Shown piece after piece: positions 3,511-58,702 of a stretch of DNA of 64,000 nucleotides; the first letter of the stretch is position 1, and the number at the start of each line of letters is the position of its first letter. Position numbers and translations under genes: made by a program. Below the pieces are notes generated by a model. The model did not search any database, was not told the DNA's origin, and worked only from the letters and a program-made list of their open reading frames with translations. This stretch comes from Amphiura filiformis (lineage: Eukaryota; Echinodermata; Ophiuroidea; Amphilepidida; Amphiuridae), in contig NC_092646.1 in assembly GCF_039555335.1 (NCBI RefSeq), positions 34,997,380 through 35,061,379 on the forward strand, written 5' to 3'.

Positions 3511-3624
3511 TCATGCATACATCAACCCACTTCCCCATCAAAGCCACTTGTGGATGATTATTGCTGAAACAATCGCTAAATTCACCAGTCATGATCGCAC
3601 AATTCTTCCCTGCAATCTTGCATA
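3511..3624 (-). CDS. Gene A exon 4, lobe 1 cysteine-rich segment
   Basis: This 114-bp exon (phase 1 in, 1 out) begins after TTTCAG and ends ATG A|GTAAGT. It encodes CKIAGKNCAIMTGEF, then a linker with a third Cys, then LMGKWVDVCM. Paralogous exons at 27355-27242 and 48325-48212 have the same length and Cys positions. The A copy is the most diverged of the three, with NNHPQVALM in place of NNLPQRALM. Confidence 0.85.
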
Positions 3625-6600
3625 CTGAAATTAAAGACATTATAATGACTTAAGGTGGTACTACACACCTTGATAGATTTATGACTATTTTTGCATTTTT
3701 CTCAAAAAATAATAACACACTGGTAAAAAAGTTATGTATATTATAGTGGCAGTGAAGTAATTCAATTCCTTGCCCCTATTAATATACATAATTTTTGTTT
3801 TTTGGCACTCGCTGGAGATGGAGTACCGACAGCTCAGCCCTCTAAAAGGACTTCTCTTAGGGAAATGATGTAACATTCTACTCATGATGTTTGCCTACCT
3901 AGATGGGTATTGCTTTGGCAATGATGCTAAACAATTTTATCCATATTTCCCTATAGGTAGTTTCAAATTACTCTTGTCTTGTCATAGGCGTTTGTCATGT
4001 TTTTAAATAACCCCCAGGTGGAAAAAGGATGTAACTTGTAAAGACAAAAAGAGGAAGATACAGCCTTATTGCCAGTTAACCAACCTATGGCAAAATACAC
4101 TTATAGTTTGATCAGCTCGTAATAGGCGGGAAATATTAGGTTTTTACCACTACGCCGAAAAGTAGACCCACGTTAAGAGTGTTATTTGTTGACCTGTCTG
4201 GTCCATACTTTGTGTGTTCAAGAAAGTAGACAAAGTATAGGACTTGAATTCATAATTCGTGATGCTTGTGACGAGATGTCACGAGCAAATTCTCAAAATA
4301 AAATGTTTTGATATTAATCCGCGATGTAATAAGGGCCGCCGATTACGAGCTGATCAAAGAATAATATCGCTGTATGCTACAACCCTTTTCCACGTGAGTC
4401 AAATCGAAATATTGACCTCAACATGGCAAAATGAAGTAAATTGATACTGATATAAATAGAAGGTACAACCATTTACCAATTTATTTACCTTCATTGACGA
4501 CGTCCACTTGATATCCTGCCAACTGATTTGTAACTGCGTTTCTACAAAGTAAGAAATAAATGGTGTTGCATCATCAAAGAAATAAATGGTGTTGCATCAT
4601 CAAAGAAATAAATGGTGTTGCATCATCAAAGAAATAAATGGTGTTGCATCATCAAAGTAAGACAGACAACGAAATATTATGCAATGGAAGCTACTAACAG
4701 AATAAAGGGAAGCTGTAAAACAGAATGTGGAATGAGTAATAATCTTTTTTATATGAATTATGGGGATGAAAAATGTTATTGTTAATGTTATAACATGTCA
4801 AACACATAATACTTGCTTTAAGGCAACGCGATCTTTTGTTGGTCGAAGCAACCAAAGAAATCAGTTTTCATTGTCTAAATCAATATATTATTGAAAACTA
4901 ACACAATGTTTCCAAACGTTCATTCTACAAATCATATACTTTGAAAACTTGCTTGATTTGCTTCTGCCCTCTTTACAACATAACTCAAGAACCACAGGAC
5001 CTACAAAAGTATATCTGTGATATTTGAATTCTTTTACATGCTCGCTATGAAATGATCAATGCAAGTTTTGCCAAAGCTCCCTATCATTCGCAAGATGCTG
5101 TGAACTACCAAATCGCAACAGTTTAAATTAGTTGTTAACCTTTTATATGGTACATTTGTTCCATCTTAATAGCTCTTAACAGTACAAATATAGACAAGGT
5201 GGTACTGTTATTTTACTATTCTATTACCTCTACGACCCATTATTTAAAAGAGTGTGATTTATTGCAATATGTCACGTGAAAGACCTTATTAAATTACAAC
5301 GAAATGGCCAGTTTATTCTTCTCGCACAACAGCACACAAGTGCGATGTTGTCTAAACATAGACAGTATCCCTGTCTATGGTCTAAGCGAATCAGCAGTAA
5401 AAACGTTCTCGGGGGGGGGCATGGGAGTTTGGGTCAGGCAGAATTTTTTTTTTCGCCACCGAAGGCGGCGGAATTTTTTTTTTTCGCCTCCGAAGGCAGC
5501 AAAAAAATTTTTTTAATACAATTTTTATACAAAGTTGGGGGATTTTTTTTTCGTCTCACTAGTGGGCCAAGTTTTTTTTCTCCAAAAAACTCCCATGCCC
5601 CCCTGGAAATCTAATGGTGCGCCCCTAATAATGCAACACCATTTATTTCTTGTATCAAGGTTTAAGTTGAGAACAACATCTCATATTTTGTCTGTATTGT
5701 AAAGTGACTTACGAGTAAATCTGTCGAATAGGAGTGTCGAAGAGCATCATGAAATTCCAGATTTGTGGATCATAGTGCAAGTTGCTGGAGCCAATGTCTC
5801 CTGTAAGATATAAAAAGCAAAACAAAGGTGTCACAATCACAAGTTAAAAAGGTGAAATCAAAACGGAAATTCTGTAGACCCACACGATGTGCCTTACAGA
5901 GGTGGGAAATATCTTTCTTCAGCAAACTTTATTAGTTTGAAGCGCTAAAAAATTGAATTCCGAAAAAAGCTCGCGGGCGAACTTAAAGCCTATAAAAAAA
6001 AATATCACACTAAACCGTAAACGACACAATTTCATGCCTAATACGATCACCAGTATCTTTTTAAATGTATATCCTATCACTATGTTTTTACTGACATTTC
6101 TGAAGAAAAAAATTATTGCTTTATATTTGACCAAGAACATTAATTTCATAGCAAAAAGGTGTATCTCTAAATTGCGCTGATTTTAAAATGTCTCGATCGA
6201 CTTTTAGCGCGGCTATGCATAACAAAAGAACTGGTGCCCACCGTTCTGTCTGTATACTGTATGTGACGTTTATCATATTCTGTGAAGGAAACCGAAGGAG
6301 TTGAGAGCCATACTCCAAATTGCAACAAGATCAATCCTTCATGAATGTTAATCATAGTGAGGTCTTCTGGCCATTCACTGTATACTATTATTGCATTTTC
6401 TAAGTGTGCACCGTATATGGTCAATTCCAGCGAAAGCGGGACAAAATTCTCTCTATGTTAACTTTCCACTTTAAAATGGCATTAATAAAGGAAATCACGT
6501 TATTGATGGAGCATATCATGTCACGTCCAATGTGCTCTCTTTGTGCATATAGGCCTTTACTAGCAAGTCATACCAGGGGACAAGTTATGATAGCTTAAAT

Positions 6601-58000: not shown

Positions 58001-58702
58001 TGGACAATTGAATTCTACTTATATAACAAACAAGACAAACAGGTGTCGCAAGCTGTATGTTAAGGTCATCTAAATGTATTTTCCCTATATTTTTTATACA
58101 TTTCTATTTAGATAAGATTATTTTCATACACGAGCTAGGTTTAGATCCAAAGTGGGGAAAACACTTGCATGAAGGTGTCCTCAGCCATATGCAGACCAGT
58201 TAATTTCATTCCGTTTTAAATCGTCTTACAACTAATTAATCAGTTTCGCGGTTTGTTAATTCGCCAGGCATATCGAGTTTTACCGACTTTCATCTGATAA
58301 TTAGTCCGTCATATAAGGTGACATGACAGGATTCCAAAGTCAAAAGGTCGTGTTACATTTAAATTTCATATTATGCAAATCCTTTTCCTCGAAGTTACTT
58401 CACTTCAGAAATGAACAAAATTTAAATATACAGTATGTATCTCAAGGAAAGTAACAATATTTGAAATAATTAAAATTTGTTTCGACTATTAAAATCATAT
58501 TTATTTATTTATTTATTTATTTATTTATTTATTTATTTATTTATTTATTTATTTATTTATTTATTTATTTATTTATGTATTTATTTATTTATGTATTTAT
58601 TTTCCTTCTTGTTTATTTGTTATTGCAAATTACAGATTTGCACTATGACTCTCAAATTTGGACAATACGACTCAACGACGAAGGTAACAGACTCAACTAT
58701 TT
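54813..58702 (+). CDS. Gene D: plus-strand membrane-anchored solute-binding protein paralogue, two 5' exons
   Basis: Exon 1 (54813-55065) encodes the membrane anchor and ends in phase 1 (CAAG|GTAAGC). Exon 2 (58636-58702) enters in phase 1 and leaves in phase 2 (TATTT|GTAAGT), exactly the phases of exon 2 in genes A-C. It encodes LHYDSQIWTIRLNDEGNRLNY, close to LHYDPRIWNF at its start but diverged after IW. No exon 3 homologue is visible up to 64000. It may be a live type II membrane version of the binding protein or a broken fragment. Its orientation is opposite to genes A-C, and it lies where gene C intron 1 is expected. Confidence 0.5.
56285..57040. mobile_element. Nested CAGCAAACAC-type MITEs
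   Basis: CCCAGCAAACACAAAAACGT at the left and ACGTTTTGTGTTTGCTGGG at the right bracket at least two further copies of the same ends (near 56547 and 56940). AAACGTTTT occurs many times, as does GTCGGGTTATATAAAGG and its complement. In gene D intron 1. Confidence 0.7.
58498..58606 (+). repeat. (TTTA)n microsatellite
   Basis: About 27 TTTA units with a few TGTA variants. It ends 30 bases before the gene D exon 2 acceptor and forms its pyrimidine-rich tract. Confidence 0.95.
58636..58702 (+). CDS. Gene D exon 2, diverged binding-domain start
   Basis: 67 bp after AAATTACAG, ending TATTT|GTAAGT. The first eight codons (LHYDSQIW) match exon 2 of genes A-C; the rest does not, and the leading 6-7 residues of the other copies are missing. 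Phases are as expected. A TTTA microsatellite lies just before it in the intron. Confidence 0.5.

Follow-up and report, generated by a model that had tools for sequence, protein, structure and literature searches.

A putative tandem family of HisJ/LAO-like SBP_bac_3 binding-protein genes with introns in the brittle star Amphiura filiformis

We analysed a 64-kb stretch of the Amphiura filiformis genome (NC_092646.1, positions 34,997,380 to 35,061,379 of the forward strand), referred to below as the window, whose guanine-plus-cytosine content is 32-39% in 4-kb steps and whose longest stop-to-stop frame (≤160 residues) is a simple repeat. Motif searching and self-comparison located the binding-protein peptides reported in an earlier note on this DNA on the minus strand at three loci (genes A, B and C), while the plus strand yielded a pair of N-terminal exons (gene D). 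Judged from their sequences, these loci probably belong to one tandem family, with four or more paralogous, intron-containing genes for SBP_bac_3 binding proteins related to the HisJ/LAO/Art kind. The note had described short exons with consistent phases at four loci; splice coordinates could be found for them, and its outer limits, positions 3511 and 58702, are both exon ends. All four loci are present, but a complete binding domain lies inside the window at B and C only, gene A being represented by exons 1-4 and gene D by exons 1-2. Searches for later exons of A in the remaining 3.5 kb and of D in the remaining 5.3 kb gave noise only (best E about 2).

Splice sites were assigned by reading the flanks of the motif-bearing exons. 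All internal borders of the exons listed here are of the form AG...GT, and the phases agree between paralogues; counted on B, the intron phases after exons 2-8 are 2, 1, 1, 0, 0, 1 and 1, so that introns occur in all three phases. On the minus strand, gene B consists of exon 2 (29223..29310, acceptor AG and donor GTAAGT), exon 3 (28032..28084, LAGYQVDVVNE, AG and GTAATT), exon 4 (27242..27355, C-x6-C, AG and GTACGT), exon 5 (24713..24900, SSIRARSAGFT ... GFLEAWWAD, AG and GTAAGA), exon 6 (23419..23505, AG and GTAAGT), exon 7 (21589..21682, IDAIFVSDDLEG, AG and GTATGT), exon 8 (21062..21187, RKDSLLPSWW ... VHG, AG and GTAAGT) and exon 9 (19888..19928, SVPGKPGSEICL and an in-frame stop codon, AG acceptor). 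Gene C, on the same strand, has exon 2 at 50316..50406 (AG and GTAAGT), exon 3 at 48836..48888 (LAGYNVDVVNE, AG and GTAAGC), exon 4 at 48212..48325 (C-x6-C, AG and GTACGT), exon 5 at 47180..47367 (SSIRARSVGFT ... GFLDAWWAD, AG and GTAAGA), exon 6 at 46491..46577 (AG and GTAAGT), exon 7 at 45825..45918 (IDAIFMSNDLEG, AG and GTATGT), exon 8 at 43772..43897 (RKDSLLESWW ... VHG, AG and GTAAGT) and exon 9 at 42633..42685 (NIPGRTAAEICIDYSP and an in-frame stop codon, AG acceptor). Each set of eight exons thus encodes an almost complete SBP_bac_3 domain with an intact stop in exon 9; retention of intron 8 would end both proteins at VHGK*. Joined from exon 2, the translations run to 262 (B) and 267 (C) residues with no internal stop, and the two genes are 71% identical over 262 codons. 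At the DNA level the exons stand out from their flanks, as in the matches between exon 3 of A and B (63 nt, 97% identical, E = 5e-24) and between exon 8 of B and C (204 nt, 87% identical, E = 2e-66).

Long TGAT-type arrays (24440-24712 and 46780-47179) abut the exon 5 donor in B and C; the array thus appears to be older than the duplication. A 1.2-kb block at 76% identity, containing a 167-nt segment at 95% (18021-18187 / 41234-41400), starts 0.7 kb (B) and 0.2 kb (C) downstream of the terminal exons; it is possibly a 3' untranslated region or an inserted element.

Gene A carries, on the minus strand, exon 2 (5713..5800, LHYDPQIWNF, AG and GTAAGT), exon 3 (4489..4541, TNQLAGYQVDVVNE, AG and GTAAAT) and exon 4 (3511..3624, with the C-x6-C pair and ALMGKWVDVCM, AG and GTAAGT). 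Its exon 1 (13048..13306, donor GTAAGG) has an intact ATG frame encoding a start Met, a short head, a transmembrane-like segment and a Gly/Ser linker. On the plus strand, gene D has a membrane-anchor exon 1 (54813..55065, donor GTAAGC) and an exon 2 (58636..58702, LHYDSQIWTIRLNDEGNRLNY, acceptor AATTACAG, donor GTAAGT, phase 1 to 2). Both first exons end in phase 1, compatible with exon 2, and encode MGEGR..., then a single segment of strong hydrophobicity and a linker that is polar or rich in Gly/Ser; they are 52% identical over 89 aligned columns (tblastn E = 5e-17). This membrane-anchor exon of A and D is new here and was missed by the earlier note. In gene D the charges around the hydrophobic segment, counted by eye, are +1 before it and -3 in the 15 residues after it, a pattern that favours an N-in/C-out orientation, and glycosylation sequons at positions 12, 42 and 52 fall on both sides of the segment and are not decisive for topology. 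In Pfam the anchor exons matched DUF2371 (0.18), YldA (0.21) and Neuroparsin (0.23) only weakly, which was judged to be chance.

Two further copies of the anchor exon have decayed. One (15659..15814, minus strand) lacks an in-frame start Met and is 62% identical to the anchor of D and 75% to that of A; the other (40556..40588, minus strand) is a remnant amid stops and frame breaks, with 88-94% DNA identity over 32-33 nt to the copies at 13.2k and 15.8k. Inside intron 1 of gene A lies a candidate alternative first exon resembling a signal peptide (MMLAVAFLFVVTLGAVNTQCPAEDE, 9365..9440, minus strand), with the right phase (1) and a perfect donor (AAG|GTGAGT, 9/9). Candidates as strong (donor 9/9, hydropathy ≥2.8) occurred in 0 of 40 simulated 64-kb strands; the exon may nevertheless belong to a gene other than A. 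The same intron contains a tandem duplication (10218-10881 / 11242-11916) with pieces 90-96% identical. For gene B, the candidate first exon at 37659..37740 (MNRIIINVAVIALLSTMCLVEAGKVRK, minus strand, phase 1, donor 7/9) is weak and compatible with chance, about 0.5 such candidates being expected per simulated 64-kb strand. For gene C, no first exon was found in 50407-54812, even under relaxed limits. A conserved block at 30.3-30.7k / 50.9-51.3k was considered as a possible first exon for B and C but discarded, as it contains neither anchor nor signal; a hydrophobic frame at 55445 (minus strand), considered for C, was dropped, being Leu-rich, located inside intron 1 of gene D and missed by the donor-scored search.

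The domain encoded by the joined exons is almost certainly SBP_bac_3, as judged by sequence comparison. In a Pfam scan of nine window-derived proteins, PF00497 was the sole Pfam-A match at E ≤ 1 for C (1e-5, 25.8 bits), B (6.5e-4, 19.9 bits) and partial A (0.03, 14.5 bits); a methionyl aminopeptidase match of B (NCBIfam, 0.2) was judged to be chance. Four PDB sequences were recovered by phmmer at E ≤ 1: two amino-acid binding proteins, an arginine-binding protein and one titled 'ABC transporter'. With a three-row profile at E ≤ 10, the 10 PDB matches comprised six LAO/HisJ entries, 'ABC transporter', 'STM4351' and two methionine aminopeptidases; eight of them are thus bacterial binding proteins or the 'ABC transporter' entry. 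The profile alignment to LAO 6ft2 spans residues 37-252, leaving the N-terminal 35 residues (strand beta-1) unaligned. Similarity along the two-lobe domain was found with hhalign against a profile of eight bacterial binding proteins (95.8%, E = 6.8e-9, 205 columns) and against HisJ alone (74.7%, E = 2.6e-5, 202 columns). A tblastn search of plasmids matched 196 records at E ≤ 10, and in 92 of these a matching region spans 80% or more of the query; among the matches listed (best 20 of 196), the best E was 2e-3 and identity was 22-25%.

B and C follow the motif order of HisJ, LAO (ArgT) and ArtJ, namely GYxVDV/GFDIDL, C-x6-C, Arg77, IDA and RKD, in keeping with the HisJ/LAO-like character proposed for them earlier; a further shared feature is the C-terminal VHG of B and C, which corresponds to VYG in HisJ/LAO. 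Gene C is 18-26% identical to HisJ, LAO and ArtJ. Compared with these proteins, the family has about 6 additional residues in lobe 1, 4 before the Asp161 site and about 12 fewer before RKD; it also has AWW for GTT, six further cysteines and introns, and no transporter partner in the chain. The beta-1 strand with the bacterial D11 and YPPF is unrecognisable in B and C. The eight cysteines of B and C lie at matching places, which would suit an extracellular setting.

In a joint alignment of nine rows (B, C and seven bacterial proteins, with GlnH left out), 18 columns are invariant. These include both cysteines of the lobe 1 C-x6-C pair, which GlnH lacks, and Arg86 of the alignment, equivalent to HisJ Arg77. 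In HisJ/LAO/Art this Arg presumably binds the ligand carboxylate, and carboxylate binding through it is plausible in B and C as well. Asp161, which we take to contact the ligand amino group in HisJ/LAO/Art, is invariant in 8/8 bacterial rows; the aligned residue of B and C is a Glu, preceded by a four-residue insertion that itself contains an Asp. The G-S/T-T loop of lobe 2, GST or GTT in six of the seven bacterial rows of the joint alignment and STI in the Rhizobium row, is AWW in B and C, which suggests a changed ligand. Because the pocket is altered in these two ways (GTT to AWW, Asp161 replaced or moved), an amino-acid ligand is only putative.

The same fold family contains the ligand-binding domain of ionotropic glutamate receptors (iGluRs; PF10613/PF00497), which shares the Arg anchor, and the earlier note had raised the possibility of a receptor-derived domain that lost its channel. 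Under such an origin, an iGluR or a chemosensory ionotropic receptor (IR) ligand-binding domain would have shed its amino-terminal domain and pore. We find this quite improbable. The junction between S1 and S2, where the pore of iGluRs is sited, runs uninterrupted through exon 5 of B and C, which bears out, for the two complete domains, the earlier statement that no partner channel is visible and disfavours a receptor that lost one. Neither PF10613 nor PF00060 matched B, C or partial A at E ≤ 1, and direct similarity to the AMPA-receptor ligand-binding domain GluA2, the sole iGluR used here, went undetected: hhalign gave 0.8% over 16 columns, against 74.7% over 202 columns for HisJ. None of the 10 PDB profile matches is an iGluR, even though the PDB contains at least 190 distinct sequences matching GluA2 at E ≤ 1e-60, and the HisJ/LAO-type C-x6-C pair and VHG tail are retained. 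On the other hand, control GluA2 matches not only PF10613 (1.5e-46) but also PF00497 (1.5e-18, 67 bits), and the bacterial profile matches it at 97.8% (E = 1.1e-12), so similarity to that profile alone leaves ancestry unsettled. Bacterial controls also touch PF10613 (HisJ 1.3e-4, a Paracoccus protein 3.5e-10), and the missing iGluR match of B and C may therefore partly reflect divergence. The case for the HisJ side comes from comparing single sequences like for like, from the PDB lists and from the marker residues.

Phylogenetic analysis used 17 rows, namely B, C, GluA2 and 14 bacterial proteins (one a near-duplicate; five selected by us from the 80 loci of one search). B and C joined each other at 100/100 on a stem of 4.66. 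The tree of bacterial binding proteins and an iGluR domain suggested earlier separated GluA2 from them, placing it with GlnH at 94/98, but gave weak support (39/62) to the position of B and C next to a Rhizobium protein, which was itself originally picked as a match. With 16 rows, forcing B, C and GluA2 together cost 13.7 log units (approximately unbiased (AU) test, p = 0.043), and forcing B, C, GluA2 and GlnH together, a grouping named after the first tree had been seen, cost 7.8 (p = 0.032); given long branches and a single iGluR, both results are marginal. They point in the same direction as the comparisons above, away from a receptor origin. More likely than a channel-losing receptor is that a binding protein of the cationic-amino-acid type was acquired long ago, from bacteria or from earlier eukaryotes.

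No close bacterial relative was found: among 398 Pseudomonadota genomes, three gave a match at E ≤ 1e-4, the best of 26 bits, and since at most six candidates were scored per genome listed, relatives may be missed. Peptide-pattern searches with two patterns each matched 23 prokaryotic and 129 viral stretches, 0 of which were confirmed by tblastn at E ≤ 1e-3. This outcome, together with introns in all three phases, would also agree with vertical descent of an old eukaryotic SBP_bac_3 family that neither was transferred into the lineage nor arose from iGluRs. Nothing in this analysis, however, places the family in other eukaryotes, the collections searched containing none, and we regard vertical descent as rather unlikely.

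Substitution rates bear on whether the genes still function. Between B and C the nonsynonymous rate (Ka) is 0.189 and the synonymous rate (Ks) 0.249, a ratio of 0.76; over 84 codons each, the ratio is 0.86 for A-B and 0.54 for A-C. The exons differ: in terms of the proportions of nonsynonymous (pN) and synonymous (pS) differences, exon 4 is slow (pN 0.066, pS 0.390), exons 6 and 9 are fast, and exon 6 shows the reverse relation (pN 0.308, pS 0.122), with 20.5 nonsynonymous and 2.5 synonymous changes, which are small counts. An array of formerly working genes now losing function would account for the B-C ratio and exon 6, and also for the two decayed anchor exons and the lack of a clear first exon in B and C; it is an unlikely explanation, as all eight exons of B and C retain frame, splice sites and all eight cysteines, and exon 4 looks constrained. 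Alternatively, the family may be diversifying in the manner of immune or chemosensory arrays, with lobe 2 surfaces that evolve fast to recognise new partners or ligands. The tandem copies, the slow exon 4 beside fast exons 6 and 9 and the altered AWW motif would fit; with a single complete gene pair and small counts, diversification seems doubtful.

Overall, the best reading of the sequences is that the tandem genes form a family whose products bind ligands at the cell surface or after secretion, an interpretation that we consider probable. Several observations weigh against it. While PF00497 is the sole family matched, as the earlier note had anticipated, the scores of C, B and partial A all fall under the gathering cut-off of 26.4 bits (C by 0.6), so the three are filed as divergent relatives and not as curated members, and the NCBIfam HisJ and LAO models match at E 0.012-0.046, far under their cut-offs. 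GluA2 is nearer than B and C both to PF00497 and to the bacterial profile, Asp161 and the GTT loop are changed, and the Ka/Ks ratios of all three pairs also fit relaxed constraint. Finally, because B and C have no convincing first exon, the anchor evidence is limited to A and D.

Elsewhere in the window, a direct repeat of 525 bp (6410-6934 / 63476-64000, 97% identical) reaches the right end, and a short inverted piece lies at 8489-8530; these are probably copies of one mobile element. The open frame 51738-51989 (minus strand) encodes a transposon-like DUF4817 helix-turn-helix (Pfam E = 1.4e-8), an element that, like the richness in introns, would fit an animal genome. At 16005-16399 there are frames of the type GSVVTALDS / RWWDGESNPR, which we take to resemble a common repeat of invertebrate genomes; the one frame scanned had no Pfam match. 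Searches of the window with Rfam (gathering threshold) and for tRNA genes gave no match.

Entry of the SBP_bac_3 domain into eukaryotes has already been proposed: according to a study of transfers into early-diverging fungi, Oscillospiraceae and Methanobacteriaceae were the sources of such genes in the anaerobic fungi Neocallimastix californiae and Anaeromyces robustus (PMC11291939). Those cases share with ours an SBP_bac_3 domain in a eukaryote, there with a proposed bacterial or archaeal origin, and would be separate transfers. For the brittle star, we tentatively propose that an animal lineage acquired a bacterial cationic-amino-acid-type binding protein long ago, added introns and an anchor, and expanded it in tandem into cell-surface and secreted recognition proteins with a re-cut pocket (AWW). 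Bacteria also use SBP_bac_3 domains at the membrane without an importer, in sensor-fused proteins of the BvgS/EvgS type and in MltF, which carry kinase or lytic domains; none of these was matched by the family. To our knowledge, the only animal proteins described with this fold are glutamate and IR-type channels, in which it binds the ligand; B and C differ from these in having no channel between S1 and S2 and no PF10613 match. No stand-alone animal representative was found by title in the literature searched, where the titles concerned fungal, bacterial, plant, vertebrate or insect receptor work; some searches, whose matches came mainly from taxon words, say little. Proteins of this kind may be present in databases under automatically assigned names.

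In the mechanism we propose, the anchor of A and D would sit N-in/C-out and hold the binding domain outside the cell; such extracellular display is likely. At the cell surface the two lobes could thereby enclose a small ligand, the conserved equivalent of HisJ Arg77 still holding a carboxylate, and binding of small ligands by members of the family appears reasonably likely from their sequences. The alternative signal-peptide exon in A could release a soluble form. As the chain contains neither transporter nor channel, the role that we would put forward first, tentatively, is that of a ligand-capturing co-receptor or scavenger. Because the domain comprises only about 265 residues, the role of the family is directly testable. 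If the acquisition proposed here is correct, animals would put the SBP fold to use twice, in glutamate receptors and, without a channel, in this family, and a stand-alone, membrane-anchored, tandem HisJ/LAO-like family would constitute a separate animal route for sensing or sequestering small molecules.

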